Positions 8,671-36,761 of a stretch of 39,797 bases of DNA are shown piece after piece. The translations under genes were made by a program, and so were the position numbers. The notes below the pieces were generated by a model. It was given only the letters and a program-made list of their open reading frames with translations, ran no database searches and was not told where the DNA came from. How positions within the stretch are numbered: position 1 is the stretch's first letter; every line of letters begins with the position of its first letter. Origin of the DNA: an uncultured Flavobacteriaceae bacterium (GTDB lineage Bacteria; Bacteroidota; Bacteroidia; Flavobacteriales; Flavobacteriaceae); the NCBI GenBank assembly GCA_937937185.1, contig CALDCO010000301.1, positions 1-39,797 on the forward strand, in the 5' to 3' direction.

Positions 8671-9501
8671 ATGCCTATTGTCACATTAACAACAGATTTT
8701 GGTGAAAAAGATCACTTTGTTGGTGCGATAAAAGGCGCTATTTACAATGAGATCCCTGATATTCAAATTGTTGACATTTCGCATAGCATCTCTCCTTTTA
8801 ATATCCCTGAGGCGGCTTACATTATACAAAATGCTTTTAAAAGTTTCCCCGAAGGTTCTATACATATTGTAGGAATTGATTCAGAATTAAATGAAGAAAA
8901 TAAGCACATCGCCTTAAAGTTAGAAGGTCATTATTTTGTATGCGCAAACAATGGTATTATGAGCATGATTTGTGCTGAAATTACGCCCGAACAAATTGTA
9001 GAAATTAATATTCATGATCACATTGAAAGTAGCTTTCCTGTATTAGATGTATTTGTAAAAGTAGCTTGCCATATTGCCCGAGGTGGGGCTTTAGGTGTCG
9101 TTGGAAAAATAATACAGACCATAAAACCAATTAAAAACCTAAGCCCATACTTAAACGACAAAAAAACACAAATAATTGGCAGTATTATTTATATAGATAA
9201 CTACGGGAATGTAATTACCAATATTAAAAAATCATTTTTCGAAAACATACAGAAAGGGCGGTCTTTTGAAATCTCTGCTCGTAATTATAAATTTAAACGT
9301 ATTTTTTCCAAGTATAGCGATATTGTTAATTTTGATGTTCCTGAAGACAAACGTAACGATGAAGGCAGGGGTCTTGTGGTATTTAATTCGTCTCAATATT
9401 TAGAAATTGCTATTTATAAAAGCAATAGCCATTCGGTAGGCAGTGCAAGTACCTTAATGGGCTTAAGAATGAGAGATACGGTGACTGTGAATTTTGATTA
9501 A
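8671..9501 (+). CDS. SAM hydrolase (SAM hydroxide adenosyltransferase, DUF62 family)
   Basis: A 276-residue member of the fluorinase/chlorinase-like family that in most bacteria hydrolyses S-adenosylmethionine to adenosine and methionine. Diagnostic segments are TLTTDFGEKDHFVGAIKG at the N-terminus, VDISHSISPFNI, GIDSE, CANNGI, and the C-terminal-domain strand IYIDNYGNVITNI. The end (SVGSASTLMGLRMRDTV) also fits the family. It is divergent from phoH. Its last codon (Asp) and TAA stop lie inside the first unit of the GATTNNN heptad array at 9496-9558. The family is sure; halogenase activity is unlikely but not excluded. Confidence 0.9.
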   Translation: MPIVTLTTDFGEKDHFVGAIKGAIYNEIPDIQIVDISHSISPFNIPEAAYIIQNAFKSFPEGSIHIVGIDSELNEENKHIALKLEGHYFVCANNGIMSMICAEITPEQIVEINIHDHIESSFPVLDVFVKVACHIARGGALGVVGKIIQTIKPIKNLSPYLNDKKTQIIGSIIYIDNYGNVITNIKKSFFENIQKGRSFEISARNYKFKRIFSKYSDIVNFDVPEDKRNDEGRGLVVFNSSQYLEIAIYKSNSHSVGSASTLMGLRMRDTVTVNFD

Positions 9502-9558
9502 CGATTAACGATTGGTGATTGATGATTGGTGATTGGTGATTGGTGATTGGTGATTTTT
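9496..9558. repeat. Heptad array A: nine GATTNNN units
   Basis: Nine contiguous 7-bp units all begin GATT: GATTAAC twice, GATTGGT, GATTGAT, GATTGGT four times, then GATTTTT. The first unit contains the stop codon of the SAM hydrolase gene. A second nine-unit array lies at 9933-9995, on the other side of the small monooxygenase gene. Confidence 0.9.
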
Positions 9559-9627
9559 TAATCAAAAAAAGAATTTAGTTTTTTGAATCTTGAATTTTAA
9601 ATTTTGAACCTTTAAATTATACATCCC

Positions 9628-9924
9628 TTGTTAGTAAGAATTGTAAAATTGAGTATAGCCGAAGAACATATTAAAACATTTCTGGCTAACTTTGAAAAAC
9701 AAAAAGAAAATATACGAAACTTTAAAGGTTGTCGTTTTCTAGAATTGTATAGAGATAAAACCAATGCGCATCTATTTTTCACCTACAGCTATTGGAATAC
9801 TGAAGCCGATCTAGAAAATTATAGGCATTCTAAATTATTTAAAGGGATTTGGGCTAAAACCAAACCTTTATTTAATGATAAACCACAGGCTTGGAGTGTT
9901 GAGAAATTGGATTCGCTTGAATAG
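9628..9924 (+). CDS. Antibiotic biosynthesis monooxygenase (ABM) domain protein
   Basis: A 98-residue single-domain protein with the ferredoxin-like dimeric alpha/beta-barrel pattern: strand RIVKLSIAEEHIKTFLANFE, then GCRFLELYRDK, FFTYSYWNTEADLENYRHS and a C-terminal strand. This fits the ABM/quinol monooxygenase-like superfamily, whose members are cofactor-free oxygenases, haem-degrading enzymes or stress proteins. The start is a TTG at 9628, chosen because the family usually opens with M-[LI]-[VI]-R-I and no ATG precedes it in frame nearby. The gene is bracketed by two GATT heptad arrays (9496-9558 and 9933-9995), so it may form a small cassette. Substrate unknown. Confidence 0.8.
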   Translation: MLVRIVKLSIAEEHIKTFLANFEKQKENIRNFKGCRFLELYRDKTNAHLFFTYSYWNTEADLENYRHSKLFKGIWAKTKPLFNDKPQAWSVEKLDSLE

Positions 9925-9932
9925 AAATGAAC

Positions 9933-9995
9933 GGATAACGATTAACGATTGGAGATTAACGATTTGAGATTGGAGATTGATGAATAACGATTTTG
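9933..9995. repeat. Heptad array B: nine GATT-type units
   Basis: Units in order: GGATAAC, GATTAAC, GATTGGA, GATTAAC, GATTTGA, GATTGGA, GATTGAT, GAATAAC, GATTTTG. The period is exactly 7 bp and the length (63 nt) equals that of array A, but the units are more diverged. It begins 9 nt after the stop codon of the ABM gene. Confidence 0.85.
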
Positions 9996-10107
9996 GAATA
10001 AAAAAGAAACTCTCGATTATTGAACTTAGCCAAAATGAAAGATTAACGGTTATTGGAATGAAAAACCTCCAAAACTAATCACTAAAAACAAAACGATTTA
10101 CAAATAA

Positions 10108-10827
10108 ATGCTCGCCTTACTTAAAAAAGAATTCAATTCATTTTTTGCCTCGCCAATAGGCTATCTGGTAATTGCTATTTTTCTTTTACTAAATGGCTTG
10201 TTTTTATGGCTTTTTAAAGGTGAGTTTAATATTCTTGATTATGGTTTTAGTGATTTATCGTCCTTCTTTTTAATCTCCCCTTGGATTTTTATTTTCTTAA
10301 TCCCCGCAGTTACCATGCGCAGTTTTAGCGATGAGAAAAAGCAAGGCACGCTAGAACTCTTATTAACCAAACCCATTTCTCATTTCCACATTGTTTTGGG
10401 TAAATATTTAGGTGCTTTATCGTTAATAATAATTGCATTAATACCCACATTATTATATGTGTATACTGTGCATCAGCTAGGAAATCCTATTGGGAATTTA
10501 GATACTGGTAGTACCATTGGTTCTTATTTTGGTTTGTTTTTCTTAGCGGCAACTTACACCGCTATTGGTGTTTTTGGATCTACACTATCTAACAATCAGA
10601 TAGTTGCCTTTATCATTGCCGTATTCTTATGTTTCTTTTTTTATATTGGTTTTGAAGGTATTGCAGGCTTTACCTCAAGCCATTTTATTGAGCAACTGGG
10701 AATGAGTTTCCATTATAAAAGCATTAGTCGAGGGGTGATAGATACCAGAGATATTATTTATTTTTTAAGTGTTACTGTTTTGTTTTTAGTGCTTACCAAA
10801 CTTAATATAAACAGAGAAGCTAGATGA
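10108..10827 (+). CDS. gldF: Gliding-motility ABC transporter permease GldF
   Basis: A 239-residue ABC-2-type permease with about six membrane segments, opening MLALLKKEFNSFFASPIGYL and carrying the family motif MRSFSDEKKQGTLELLLTKPI near residues 70-90. GldF works with GldG and the ATPase GldA in the transporter associated with flavobacterial gliding; the substrate is not established. gldA is not in this window. The stop overlaps the start of the following 161-codon gene by 4 nt (ATGA), which implies translational coupling. In many Flavobacteriaceae gldF, gldG and dnaN are neighbours, as here, but with no gene between gldF and gldG. Confidence 0.93.
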   Translation: MLALLKKEFNSFFASPIGYLVIAIFLLLNGLFLWLFKGEFNILDYGFSDLSSFFLISPWIFIFLIPAVTMRSFSDEKKQGTLELLLTKPISHFHIVLGKYLGALSLIIIALIPTLLYVYTVHQLGNPIGNLDTGSTIGSYFGLFFLAATYTAIGVFGSTLSNNQIVAFIIAVFLCFFFYIGFEGIAGFTSSHFIEQLGMSFHYKSISRGVIDTRDIIYFLSVTVLFLVLTKLNINREAR

Positions 10828-11309
10828 TAATCACCTACAAGTTAGTTATTGCCTTAATTATTAGTTTTGTTTTAGTTTGGTTATTTGTTAAAACCATAGA
10901 CAAACGAAAATGGTTAACGCTATTATTAACTATTGTCTTATCTCCAATTTTATATTTTTATTTGTTTTATCCGTTATTAAATATTTTTAGTAGCTACCAT
11001 CATGAAAAATATTTTGACGCCCAACAATGGATTAAAAAACCTAGCTCAAGGTATGAAATGATTAATGATATGGTGAGCAATAAAATACTAATAGGTAAAA
11101 CTAAAGCAGAAATACAAACCTTACTTGGTAAATACGAATGGCTAAGTTGGGATAAGGCCTTAAACGCTAAATCGAAAGATAAATGGAATTACAATTTGGG
11201 TTTAAAACCAGGTGCCCTTAACAAAAAAATGGAATGTATGGAGCTTAATTTTAATAATGCTCAAGTAACCGCTTTAAGGCGCTATCAAATGGAGGAAGAA
11301 TTTGAATAA
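10824..11309 (+). CDS. Membrane-anchored BamE/SmpA-like protein between gldF and gldG
   Basis: A 161-residue protein with two N-terminal membrane helices (about 5-25 and 31-52) and a soluble C-terminal domain. Residues approximately 90-155 show a pattern like the BamE/SmpA fold: ILIGKTKAEIQTLLGKYEW, a WNYNLG strand, then MELNFNNAQVTALRRY. BamE-like domains bind partner proteins at the envelope; the specific family was not identified. The start overlaps the gldF stop by 4 nt and the stop overlaps the gldG start, so all three are likely made together. The placement suggests a role with the Gld transporter, which is inference. Confidence 0.75.
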   Translation: MIITYKLVIALIISFVLVWLFVKTIDKRKWLTLLLTIVLSPILYFYLFYPLLNIFSSYHHEKYFDAQQWIKKPSSRYEMINDMVSNKILIGKTKAEIQTLLGKYEWLSWDKALNAKSKDKWNYNLGLKPGALNKKMECMELNFNNAQVTALRRYQMEEEFE

Positions 11310-12969
11310 AAACATAAAACATATTGGCTTTTTATTTATCGCACTTATTGCTATAAATTTTATAAGTTCTCGAATGTACAAACGTTTCGATTTAACTTCA
11401 GACAAACGCTATACCCTTAATCAGGCTGCTCTTAATGTCATACAAGACGTCGATTCTCCAATTGCCATAGACGTTTTTTTAGAAGGCGAAGATTTCCCTT
11501 CAGAATTTAGACGTTTGCAAATAGAAACCAGACAATTACTCGAAGAATTTTCAGCTTATAATAACAATATTACTTTTAATTTCTTAAACCCTATTAAGGA
11601 TGAGGCCACAAGAACTCGCAATATTAAGCAATTACAAGCAAGAGGCTTAACCCCAATGCAACTTAGTGTTCAAGACAATGGGAAATTGTCTCAAGACATT
11701 GTTTTTCCATGGGCTTTAGCTAGTTATAACGAACAAACTGTTATTATCCCGTTAATAAAAAATAAGATTGGCGCTTCGCAACAAGAACTGGTCTCTAACT
11801 CTGTACAACATTTAGAATATGCTTTTGCCGATGGTTTTAGTAAGTTAGTTAACCCTAAACGCCGTAAAATAGCTATATTAAAAGGGAATGGGCAATTAGA
11901 AAACAAACATATTGCTAGCTTTATAAAAACCTTAAGACCCTATTATCTTATTGCCCCCTTTACTTTGGATAGTGTGGCAAAACGTTCCCAAGAAACATTA
12001 GAAAAAATTAAAGACTACGATTTAATAATTTCTGCAAAACCAACACAAGCTTTTAGTGAAAAAGAAAAATTAGTACTGGACCAATACACCATGAACGGTG
12101 GTAAAAGCCTTTGGCTAATCGATGCCGTAGCCATGGATAAAGACAGCTTATACAATGAGTCGGGAAGAAACTTCGCAACCACACGAGCTCTTAATTTAAC
12201 CGATTTCTTTTTTAAATATGGTGCGCGTATAAATCCAGTTTTAGTAAGTACCCTTTACTCTGCACCCATAACATTAGCCATGGGAGAAGGTAGTGAGTCT
12301 CAATTTAATCATTTGCGTTGGCCTTATTCTCCTTTAGCAAACAGTAAAAGCAAGCACCCTATCGTTAATAATTTAAATTTAGTAAAGTTCGATTTTGCAA
12401 ACCAAATAGATACCTTAAAAAACAGCATTTCAAAAACGATTTTATTACAGAGTGAATCCCTAAGCAGATTGGAAGGCACCCCTAGAGAAATTAGTTTAGA
12501 AATGGTGACTAAAGAACCCATAAAGGAAAGCTTTAACAAAGGCCCTCAAAATTTAGCAGTTTTGTTAGAGGGCGAATTTACGTCAGTTTACAATAATCGA
12601 ATTAAGCCTTTTAATCTTTTAGAGGAAAAAAATAAAAGCGCTCCCACTAAAATGATTTTAATTGCCGATGGTGATGTTATTAAAAATGAAATGGGTAGAA
12701 AAGGGCCCGAAGAATTGGGTTTTGACCGATGGACTGGAAAAACGTATGGAAACAAAGAGTTTTTGCTTAATGCCGTAAATTATCTTTTAGATGATGATGG
12801 ACTTATAAACATTCGCTCGAAAGAAATTAATATTGCTTTTCTGGATCCAGAAAAAATTGCAAAAACTAAAACAAAATGGCAATTCATTAATATAGCACTT
12901 CCACTCTTATTTTTAGGTGTTTTCGGATTTATATTTAACCTTCTACGTAGAAAAAAATACAAGAAATAA
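11302..12969 (+). CDS. gldG: Gliding-motility ABC transporter component GldG
   Basis: A 555-residue protein with an N-terminal membrane segment (IGFLFIALIAINFI), a large extracytoplasmic domain with the GldG/ABC-type uncharacterised region (RFDLTSDKRYTLNQAALN, then IDVFLEGEDFPSEFRRLQ), and a C-terminal membrane helix (about 530-548) followed by a basic tail. Length matches GldG (about 560). The start is TTG at 11302, preceded by a strong GGAGGA ribosome-binding site at 11291-11296, and overlaps the end of the previous gene. It acts with GldF and GldA in gliding motility. Confidence 0.93.
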   Translation: MNKNIKHIGFLFIALIAINFISSRMYKRFDLTSDKRYTLNQAALNVIQDVDSPIAIDVFLEGEDFPSEFRRLQIETRQLLEEFSAYNNNITFNFLNPIKDEATRTRNIKQLQARGLTPMQLSVQDNGKLSQDIVFPWALASYNEQTVIIPLIKNKIGASQQELVSNSVQHLEYAFADGFSKLVNPKRRKIAILKGNGQLENKHIASFIKTLRPYYLIAPFTLDSVAKRSQETLEKIKDYDLIISAKPTQAFSEKEKLVLDQYTMNGGKSLWLIDAVAMDKDSLYNESGRNFATTRALNLTDFFFKYGARINPVLVSTLYSAPITLAMGEGSESQFNHLRWPYSPLANSKSKHPIVNNLNLVKFDFANQIDTLKNSISKTILLQSESLSRLEGTPREISLEMVTKEPIKESFNKGPQNLAVLLEGEFTSVYNNRIKPFNLLEEKNKSAPTKMILIADGDVIKNEMGRKGPEELGFDRWTGKTYGNKEFLLNAVNYLLDDDGLINIRSKEINIAFLDPEKIAKTKTKWQFINIALPLLFLGVFGFIFNLLRRKKYKK

Positions 12970-13230: not shown

Positions 13231-14349
13231 ATGAAATTTATAATATCAAGCACTTATTTATTAAAACAGTTACAAGTTTTAGGAGGCGTTATAAATAGCG
13301 CAAACACTTTACCTATTTTAGATAATTTCCTATTTGAGTTAGATGGAAATAAATTAACCGTGTCTGCTAGCGATTTAGAAACGACTATGGCTTCGACTTT
13401 AGAAGTCGAAAGTGAAGAAAATGCCAGTATTGCTATTCCGGCGCGTTTGTTACTAGATACTTTAAAAACATTTCCTGAACAACCTTTAACCTTTATTGTT
13501 GAAGATAATAATACCATAGAAATAAGTTCTAATCACGGCAAATACGCCTTAGCTTATGCCGATGGCAAGGAGTTTCCTAAAGCTTTAGAACTAGAGGATC
13601 CAAGCGCAACTACCATTGCTGGAAATGTTTTAGCTAAAGCAATTAATAAAACAATATTTGCTTCTGGTAATGATGATTTAAGACCTGTGATGAGTGGGGT
13701 GTTTTTTCAATTCTCAACAGAGAGCTTAACTTTTGTTGCTACTGATGCTCATAAACTTGTAAAATATACCCGAAAAGATATTAGTGCTTCTCAAGTGGCA
13801 GAGTTTATTATGCCTAAAAAACCATTAACACTTTTAAAAGGCATTTTAGCGGTTAGCGATGAGGACATTACTATAGAGTACAATGACTCAAATGCAAAAT
13901 TCACTTTTGAAAATACGGTGTTAATTTGCCGATTAATTGATGGGAAATATCCAAATTATGAAGCTGTAATTCCTAAAGAAAATCCTAATGTATTAAGTAT
14001 TGATAGGACACAATTTTTAAACTCGGTGAAGCGCGTAAGCATATTCTCAAATAAAACAACGCATCAAATTCGATTAAAAATTGCAGGAGCTGAATTAAAT
14101 ATTTCTGCCGAAGATATAGATTATAGTAATAAAGCAGAAGAACGTTTAACTTGCGATTATCAGGGTGATGATATGCAAATTGGTTTTAACTCTCGATTTT
14201 TAACAGAAATGCTAAATAATCTTGACGCAACAGATGTACAACTTGAAATGAGCATGCCCAACAGAGCGGGAATATTAACCCCTATAGATGGTATTGAAGA
14301 AGGAGAACATGTAACCATGCTGGTTATGCCTGTAATGCTGAATAGTTAA
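13231..14349 (+). CDS. dnaN: DNA polymerase III beta subunit (sliding clamp)
   Basis: A 372-residue clamp with the three repeated clamp domains expected for the family. It opens MKFIISSTYLLKQLQVLGGVI and includes VSASDLETTM, RPVMSGVFFQF, FVATDAHKLVKY and the C-terminal MLVMPVML, which fits the end of the third domain. It forms the ring that holds polymerase III on DNA. It stands apart from dnaA, downstream of gldFG. Its 3' end is convergent with the four-gene minus-strand operon, with only 7 nt between stop codons. Confidence 0.97.
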   Translation: MKFIISSTYLLKQLQVLGGVINSANTLPILDNFLFELDGNKLTVSASDLETTMASTLEVESEENASIAIPARLLLDTLKTFPEQPLTFIVEDNNTIEISSNHGKYALAYADGKEFPKALELEDPSATTIAGNVLAKAINKTIFASGNDDLRPVMSGVFFQFSTESLTFVATDAHKLVKYTRKDISASQVAEFIMPKKPLTLLKGILAVSDEDITIEYNDSNAKFTFENTVLICRLIDGKYPNYEAVIPKENPNVLSIDRTQFLNSVKRVSIFSNKTTHQIRLKIAGAELNISAEDIDYSNKAEERLTCDYQGDDMQIGFNSRFLTEMLNNLDATDVQLEMSMPNRAGILTPIDGIEEGEHVTMLVMPVMLNS

Positions 14350-34790: not shown

Positions 34791-36761
34791 TTATATATTT
34801 TTAATAAAACTCTCTAAAGCCAATCCTTTGGGCACGTTCATTTTTTTTCTAATTAAATAACGGTAGTTGTCTACACTAGCTTTAGTAATATTTAAGTTTT
34901 GAGCTATTTCCTTTGAGCCCTGCCCCAGTCGCACTTTAGTAACAATTGTTTTTTCTTTTTCGGTAAGGTCTAAAAAAAGTTCGCTTATTTTTTGTTCGAA
35001 TTGCTCATTTTTTTGACTGGCTTCAAGATGTAAGGCGACCTTTTCTTCATTTTTTTCAATATCGTTACTTACTTGTATCATAAGATCTAAAATCATAATT
35101 TTAGAGCCATTATTGGCTGGTTTTATAGCTTTTAATTTTGATTTAATATCTTTTAACAACTCGTTTTTATCATTTATTTGTAGCGCAAAATTGGTAACGC
35201 TTTTATTTTTAAACTTAACCTCCTTATCTAATTCTTCTTTTTTCACTTCTAATAACTGCTGTTTGGCTTCAAGAGCTACTTTTTCTGCATTAACTTGTCT
35301 TTTTTGTTTAATGAATACAATAATTATAAACAAGGTGGTGAGTACAATAAAAGTAACAATAAAATAACTATTTGCTTTTATTCTTTTTTGTTTTGATTCA
35401 GAGAGCTGTATAGCGATTCTTTCTTTTTCTAATTTAGAGCTTGCCTCCCTATATTCGTAAGACACTTTTAAAAGCGCTAATTGAGAATTTTTTGTTTTTG
35501 CTTCATTTTTTTCTTTGATGGTATTATACTTATCATAATATGATTTACAATTTTTAAAATCCCCTTTTTCATTATAAAATCGATACATTTCTTCATAGGC
35601 TTCTTCTAACAAATTGAGACTATTTGTAGATTTTGCATAGTTTAAGTTTTCATTTAAATATTTTAAAGCAATATCGGGTTGCTTAACAGCTTTGTAATAC
35701 TTCGATTTTAAAACCAATGCGTTAGATTGTATTTCGGCATATTTGGTTTGTTTATTTAGAGTTAGCGCAGAGTCTGCATATTTTAGAGCAAGTAAGAAAT
35801 TATTATTCTCTAGATATAAATTCGATAATAAATTGTAGCTAACCAACATACTTATTTTTTCATCATTATTTTTTGCAATTATCAAGGCCTTTTTAAAGTA
35901 ATTAGAAGCTAATTCTTTATCAGTATCCAGATACATTTTCCCCAAATTATTCAAAGCCTTACATTGCCCAAATGCATCATTAGTATTAATCGCAATATCT
36001 AAAGCTTTTTTTGTGTAACTCACAGCCTTGTCTAAATCATTTTTAAAATCATAATATGAAGATCCTAGGGTTAAATAAGAATCTACTACGAAATCCTCTT
36101 GGCCACTATCTTTCTTGTATAATTTTAGAACACTTTCTATACTCGCTATGGTTGCTTTTTCATCACCCGCTTCTTTAAACATACCTGCTAAAAATAGGTG
36201 ATTAAACAATAAATTTTCTTGTATTTCTCTCTGGTTTTTAATTTTCGGGTCTTTAATTTTTTCATAATACTCATTCGCCAGCAACGCACTCTCAAATGCC
36301 TTAGAGGTTTGAGAAGTATTCGTATAGATCGCAGATAAAGTTACCTTGCTATCAAATAGCAGTGGATAATAGGGGGCCTTATTGTTTTCATTTTTTAAAG
36401 TATTATCAATTCGTAAAGCATATTGTTTGGCTTCACTAAACTTGTGGTGATCGAAATTAAGATAGGAGAGTTCCAGAAGGGCATCGATTATATTTAAAGT
36501 ATCTGCATGAATTTCAGCTAGACTTAATATGTCGTGATATATAGGATTAGCCTCTGAAAAACTTGCCGTTGATTTTAAAGAATCTTTTTTTAATTTTAGA
36601 TAAGAAAGTTCTTTTAGGTATTTAGAATTCTCACTAAGTTTTTCTTCTATATTTTTTTCGTCTTTATTTTTCTTTATATTCTCTTGTCCTTTACATACGG
36701 TGTTAAGGAAAAAACACAATACCAATAATACTATTCGCTTCACTAAAGTGTTTAAGTGCAT
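34791..36761 (-). CDS. Membrane-bound TPR-LuxR family transcriptional regulator, copy 2
   Basis: A 656-residue paralogue of the gene at 32234-34189 with the same order: signal peptide, TPR-like repeats, single membrane helix (SYFIVTFIVLTTLFIIIVFI), coiled coil and LuxR-type helix-turn-helix ending ALESFIKNI. By eye the C-terminal approximately 220 residues differ at about ten positions from copy 1, whereas the TPR half differs much more, including a 5-residue insertion near residue 175. The near-identical DNA-binding domains predict overlapping targets; the diverged sensor halves predict different inputs. It is divergent from the PhoD-like gene at 37058. Confidence 0.87.
   Translation of the reverse strand: MHLNTLVKRIVLLVLCFFLNTVCKGQENIKKNKDEKNIEEKLSENSKYLKELSYLKLKKDSLKSTASFSEANPIYHDILSLAEIHADTLNIIDALLELSYLNFDHHKFSEAKQYALRIDNTLKNENNKAPYYPLLFDSKVTLSAIYTNTSQTSKAFESALLANEYYEKIKDPKIKNQREIQENLLFNHLFLAGMFKEAGDEKATIASIESVLKLYKKDSGQEDFVVDSYLTLGSSYYDFKNDLDKAVSYTKKALDIAINTNDAFGQCKALNNLGKMYLDTDKELASNYFKKALIIAKNNDEKISMLVSYNLLSNLYLENNNFLLALKYADSALTLNKQTKYAEIQSNALVLKSKYYKAVKQPDIALKYLNENLNYAKSTNSLNLLEEAYEEMYRFYNEKGDFKNCKSYYDKYNTIKEKNEAKTKNSQLALLKVSYEYREASSKLEKERIAIQLSESKQKRIKANSYFIVTFIVLTTLFIIIVFIKQKRQVNAEKVALEAKQQLLEVKKEELDKEVKFKNKSVTNFALQINDKNELLKDIKSKLKAIKPANNGSKIMILDLMIQVSNDIEKNEEKVALHLEASQKNEQFEQKISELFLDLTEKEKTIVTKVRLGQGSKEIAQNLNITKASVDNYRYLIRKKMNVPKGLALESFIKNI

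Follow-up and report, generated by a model that had tools for sequence, protein, structure and literature searches.

Heptanucleotide arrays at two junctions of a Flavobacteriaceae gene block: probable simple-sequence repeats made in place

The window analysed here, the whole stretch of 39,797 nucleotides on contig CALDCO010000301.1 of an uncultured Flavobacteriaceae bacterium, contains a small ABM-domain gene flanked by two arrays of heptads that mostly begin with GATT. The question raised by this locus is what such arrays are, an earlier note on the same DNA having offered a phase-variable spacer, a curved or protein-binding track and the edges of an inserted cassette. We assign a probability of roughly 0.75 to the reading that both are heptanucleotide simple-sequence repeats (SSRs) that arose where they stand, at non-coding junctions of an old gene block, through tandem duplication of 7 nt and slippage, and mutated thereafter, with seeding on the stop codon at tight junctions and mostly no dedicated function.

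The gene block and its arrays

The features of the locus are, in order:

8671..9501, forward strand: SAM hydroxide adenosyltransferase gene (SAM-HAT), whose stop codon is the putative seed of array A
9496..9558, forward strand: array A, nine GATTNNN heptads, beginning on the last codon and stop of SAM-HAT
9583..9612, forward strand: third heptad stretch, degenerate, of TTGAATC type, about 4 units, 78% matches
9628..9924, forward strand: ABM-domain gene, 98 codons, TTG start, an old resident of the site
9919..10002, forward strand: array B at its full in-register extent of 12 heptads, the first being GAATAGA (on the ABM stop) and the last GAATAAA
10108..10827, forward strand: gldF-like ABC-2 permease gene, downstream of array B
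10824-11309, forward strand: 161-aa ORF
11302-12969, forward strand: gldG-like gene
at 13231: dnaN-like gene, after the gldG-like gene

SAM-HAT, ABM, the gldF-like gene, the 161-aa ORF and the gldG-like gene form a same-strand block, followed by the dnaN-like gene; the names gldF, gldG and dnaN are those we take to apply to these genes. The 98-codon gene between the arrays is indeed an ABM gene (Pfam ABM, E 2.9e-14). A second gldF-like permease is found in the window's own genome (G000:C270:2712-3398, 47% identity), and second copies also occur in G003, G010 and G043. The window contains, at 36639-36693, a two-copy 27-bp tandem repeat (TRF score 73) unrelated to the heptads.

Array A reads GATTAAC GATTAAC GATTGGT GATTGAT, four further GATTGGT and a final GATTTTT, so that GATT opens all nine units. 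Its first unit is the last SAM-HAT codon GAT, the stop TAA and a C, which upholds the overlap with the SAM hydrolase stop described earlier. Array B, as first drawn at 9933-9995, also consists of nine heptads, seven of them opening with GATT; the description of two nine-unit, mostly GATT-headed arrays was thus correct. The equal length of 63 nt holds for the two segments so drawn, but for B it is set by the choice of cut, as this array extends in register both ways. The distance to the next start codon is 69 nt for array A (ABM) and about 105 nt for array B (the gldF-like gene). Both lie outside genes except at gene ends, and both carry stops in all three forward frames (nine in A, four in B). 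Between array A and ABM, the letters at 9583-9612 are TTGAATC TTGAATT TTAAATT TTGAACC, probably the decayed remains of an older array.

The arrays are real and well beyond chance. When the whole window was scanned at lags of 4-30, segments above threshold appeared at lags 7, 14, 21 and 28 alone, all of them in A or B, and no other place in the window exceeded the threshold at any of these lags. The lag-7 score is 34.5 in gap A (between SAM-HAT and ABM) and 13.0 in gap B (between ABM and the gldF-like gene), against shuffle maxima of 11 and 12, respectively; none of 1000 dinucleotide-preserving shuffles scored as high in either gap. Other GATTNNN arrays, which the earlier note had proposed to look for, are present in the same genome: the pattern of three GATTNNN units followed by GATT gives 35 overlapping matches, which cluster into 11 places including A and B. 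Four GATTNNN clusters lie within 2 kb of one contig (G000:C284:5276-7265); a pair of these, separated by about 80 nt, has its units in the same order.

Period, unit turnover and copy number in relatives

The locus was compared with 80 named loci fetched via ABM, the best 80 of 191 relatives, which with the window make 81 loci. Within these, 25 of 41 arrays of period 1-60 have period 7, whereas a block-shuffled control of the 81 loci gave five arrays, one of them of period 7. A tally of 2.06 Mb from 18 family genomes, from which 13 stretches chosen for or containing GATT matches were excluded, agrees: period 7 accounts for 16 of 49 non-coding arrays, 9 of the 16 coming from a single genome (G023) and many genomes giving none, and the next commonest period, 14, accounts for four. 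Among coding arrays of the same sample, period 7 accounts for one in 39. One stretch with two GATT matches (L129) stayed in the tally and contributed no counted array; the short contigs L154, L156, L158 and L173 were outside it.

Pattern counts in 60 family genomes point the same way. Five GATTNNN units in a row occur in 17 of the 60, compared with 3 for a period-8 form, whose three matches are all plain GATT tetranucleotide runs, and 2 for a period-6 form. For the backward patterns the figures are 24 of 60 (TTAGNNN, five units), 5 (period 8) and 1 (period 6). GATT as a special word was rejected, since the reversed pattern is found in 24 genomes versus 17. Intergenic DNA outside arrays, in 14 groups, has no consistent 7-periodicity (lag-7 z of -0.6 to 2.7), lag 7 ranking top in only two groups, the window and G023. 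Period 7 is specific, and arrays A and B belong to a class of period-7 simple-sequence repeats that is common in Flavobacteriaceae; the arrays and their period are direct observations.

At the two gaps themselves, the 81 loci contain 29 lag-7 stretches with a score of at least 9. Such stretches are found in gap A of 6 of 81 loci and in gap B of 18 of 80, the locus L032 running into a contig end and so having no gap B. The units at these gaps are unrelated to one another: GATTGGT, AGTAGAC, AGTTAGG, AGTGAGC, AACTTTT and GAATAGA, and likewise ACTGAAY, AGTGATG, AAGTGAA, AACACCT and GAGGTTT. Even among three congeners (G000, and G001 and G002, which are apparently L032 and L031), the unit lying over the SAM-HAT stop is a different one in each. 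Just after ABM, L107 has an octamer array (GTTGTTGA) where relatives carry heptamers.

Copy number varies as well. Just before gldF, Winogradskyella and relatives form a ladder of ACTGAAY units, with one in L100, three in L062, six in L073 and nine plus one variant in L061, and the flanks are recognisable in all four. Counted in register from the ABM stop, array B has about 12 units in the window, and its counterparts have about 6 in L036 and about 4 in L031; the degenerate L036 array escapes the lag-7 detector, is described from the sequences and stands outside the 29 stretches. The suggestion that the arrays are slippage-prone, to be checked by counting units in related genomes, is supported, as copy number and the unit itself differ between relatives at one site.

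Turnover of units and the copy ladder, too, are observed directly. A copy ladder between recognisable flanks is what slippage in place would leave, and the pattern looks like the birth, growth and decay of arrays where they stand. We infer slippage as the agent from differences between species rather than within one. In outline, a 7-nt tandem duplication would arise in place at a non-coding junction of the old block, replication slippage would then enlarge the array, and point mutation would break it up, array B being more decayed than A. Slippage in 7-nt steps would fit the description, in one source, of loops longer than 1-3 bp as evading methyl-directed repair (PMC4060949). Another source gives Bacteroidota a high short-repeat density (PMC12699852).

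Upstream stop codons as candidate seeds

Array A, with its first unit GAT-TAA-C, would have been seeded on the end of SAM-HAT. A second array in the same genome (L134, contig C147) also starts GAT-TAA-C, and its gene ends Asp-stop. In two relatives, the ABM end reads GATTAAC (L031) or GAATAAC (L036), and GATT heptads follow in both. In L032, the array provides a new end for SAM-HAT, LGVRS and then a stop. If ABM ends of this kind acted as seeds, A and B would come to have the same GATT unit, and stop seeding could thus explain the GATT common to both.

Start positions and unit composition were examined for such a relationship. Among 27 arrays whose start lies from -7 to +30 relative to the upstream stop, a set that leaves out L075 (-5) and L079 (0) at the ABM stop as well as L083 (-4), which is below threshold, seven start at -6/-5, none at -4 to -1 and three at 0. 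The binomial probability of the -6/-5 peak is 0.0004, for positions picked after seeing the data and with five arrays that start upstream of -7 set aside (two of them, L051 and L055, weak); taken over all positions from -7 to -1, the excess falls short of significance (P 0.22). The six bases that close the upstream gene agree with the unit at 55 of 108 positions, compared with 39.0 ± 3.6 for random gene ends, and none of 5000 draws was as high; in this test of 18 arrays the unit was taken only from DNA past the stop, related arrays were kept and starts upstream of -7 were left out. Some of the counted arrays are related to one another.

The strand of the stops was also considered. At this locus, stops in all forward frames are found in 25 of the 29 stretches, several of them related, versus 6 of 29 on the reverse strand. 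In the wider sample there is no such bias, each strand giving 5 of 14 same-strand arrays, and the idea of sense-strand stops as a genome-wide rule gave way to that of seeding at tight junctions.

The reason for such seeding may lie in what the junction tolerates. At a tight junction, a 7-nt duplication would spare the upstream protein only if it spanned the stop or lay beyond it, so that arrays would tend to be seeded on the last codon, the stop and one or two further bases. A unit that carries a stop would close all three frames within 21 nt, since 7 is 1 modulo 3, and later expansion would then be harmless to the upstream protein. The proposal that arrays at tight junctions grow from the upstream stop codon, which is new here and which we infer for such junctions as a rule, is moderately supported; as a general rule beyond them, stop seeding is unproven. 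A duplication over the last codon and stop would be one of the few that an operon junction tolerates, and it would close the three frames. On this basis we suggest, tentatively and at somewhat less than even odds, that the stop codons of tightly packed genes may be the birthplaces of self-terminating heptamer arrays, continually born, expanded and replaced, which would widen operon gaps and occasionally add a tail to the upstream protein, such as LGVRS in the SAM-HAT of L032.

Alternative readings and known repeats

The likeness of A, B and the C147 array could also have arisen by copying between places of one genome, through gene conversion or template switching onto GATTAAC gene ends, so that A, B and the other GATT arrays would be mutual copies. 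Array A and the C147 array both run GATTAAC, GATTAAC and then GATTGKT units, and arrays of C267, C284 and C303 contain GATTAAC units as well. However, independent seeding on Asp-stop ends yields an identical first unit, and the ACTGAAY unit is present at only two places each in the L076 and L071 genomes. Copying between gene ends is a live alternative for this likeness, one we consider unlikely.

On a regulatory reading, a protein bound to the arrays as RNA or DNA would adjust how ABM and the gldF-like gene are translated or transcribed, in line with MacGregor's proposal of S1-, Csp- or Csr-like binders for the TAACTGA repeats. This would agree with three arrays of this genome that end 3, 3 and 7 nt from a start codon and with the ACTGAAY arrays just before gldF. 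Such a binder would have to cope with wholly different units at one site in congeners. Arrays are also missing from this site in most loci, and the RNA fold is ordinary, no better than shuffles (z of 0.10 and -1.34), with no Rfam family at gathering score. Regulatory binding sites are, in our judgement, improbable here. DNA curvature was rejected, as the 10.5-bp AA/TT signal is as high or higher in 85% (for A) and 91% (for B) of the window's 63-mers.

As phase-variable spacers, the arrays would switch ABM or gldF expression through unit number. Copy number does differ between species at one site, but most relatives keep the genes without arrays, the switch would have to survive wholesale replacement of its unit between congeners, and ABM and gldF are not known as surface antigens of the sort typical of phase variation. 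We regard this reading as very unlikely; no sign of regulation or phase variation was found in these analyses.

Whether ABM itself is an insertion can be judged from gene order. A SAM-HAT homologue lies upstream of ABM in all 80 named loci and a gldF-like gene downstream in 79, the exception being at a contig end; between SAM-HAT and ABM the median distance is 9 nt, and in 57 of the 81 loci it is at most 16 nt. Because these loci had been fetched via ABM, 60 family genomes, the window's own included, were searched separately: SAM-HAT was found in 60, ABM in 46 and the gldF-like gene in 54. In all 46 ABM-bearing genomes the best ABM match adjoins SAM-HAT by coordinates, 2 to 172 nt from the SAM-HAT match (at most 30 nt in 31 of the 46). 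Of the other 14 genomes, in which no ABM match was found, eight have SAM-HAT directly beside the gldF-like gene, one has its gldF-like match far off, and five have no such match. The adjacency of ABM, and that of the flanking genes where it is missing, argue that ABM is an old resident, gained or lost by itself.

The idea that A and B mark the limits of an inserted ABM cassette, suggested by their flanking position and common unit, is scarcely credible and was rejected, given this conserved gene order, the ABM gene in place without arrays in most loci, and the different heptamers that the same gaps hold in relatives. Nor are ABM and both arrays gained or lost together, the test proposed in the earlier note, since ABM is kept where the arrays are missing, an outcome that the note itself named as refuting.

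One ABM match (G005:C35:77766-78052) falls into two overlapping pieces with internal stop codons, and this gene looks broken. The ABM/gldF-like gap measures 695 to 1451 nt in L031, L033, L035, L039, L040 and L046; these six wide gaps open with an apparent extra reading frame, several of which resemble short-chain dehydrogenases by eye. This gap seems prone to gene insertion.

The STRR of Calothrix and other cyanobacteria, which PMC4692102 also mentions, are degenerate tandem heptanucleotides outside genes, and resemble A and B in these respects. According to later papers, many bacterial genomes have heptamers as their most frequent longer-unit repeats, for which slippage is the proposed cause (Mrazek 2007, as cited in PMC4679880 and PMC4692102). 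Arrays A and B share with these prokaryotic heptanucleotide SSRs (Mrazek et al. 2007) 7-nt units that lie mostly outside genes, as far as those citing accounts describe them; their period 7 is beyond chance, they are outside genes and their unit number differs between relatives. The difference from that class, as so described, is that unrelated units here replace one another at one orthologous gap, in register with the upstream stop.

A close parallel may be drawn with the TAACTGA direct repeats, which the available part of MacGregor 2015 (PMC4679880) describes as intergenic and as occurring in Beggiatoaceae, Cyanobacteria and some Bacteroidetes. There, forward units have stops in all three frames, 13 sets overlap the upstream stop codon, Gramella and A. 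sublithincola carry other heptamers in the same gaps, relatives have shorter gaps without repeats, and horizontal spread and translational regulation are proposed (PMC4679880). A and B, compared with that partial account, are likewise intergenic heptamers with forward stops in three frames, overlap with an upstream stop and other heptamers in the same gaps. They differ in their GATTNNN unit, which in relatives gives way to other units at the same place, whereas TAACTGA is one fixed unit, and neither A nor B ends within a few nucleotides of the downstream start. The GGGNATC and GGGGAYT repeats of Xanthomonas and Nostoc are, in the accessible text of PMC4692102, heterogeneous intergenic heptamers whose length varies among close relatives; they are described there as G-rich quadruplex formers, and the GATTNNN arrays have no such G runs. 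Literature searches confined to open-access papers turned up none that deals with unrelated heptamers replacing one another at a single gene end, or with stop-codon seeding.

The 81 loci show, at one orthologous pair of gaps, that unrelated repeats of the same odd period arose repeatedly. Two questions thereby become testable: why slippage in bacteria should prefer 7 nt, and whether arrays are seeded by stop codons. For annotation, it advises that such arrays be taken, by default, neither as regulatory motifs nor as the edges of mobile elements. Arrays A and B are most likely a common and mostly ordinary feature of Flavobacteriaceae, most likely with no dedicated function beyond that of a spacer of variable length.
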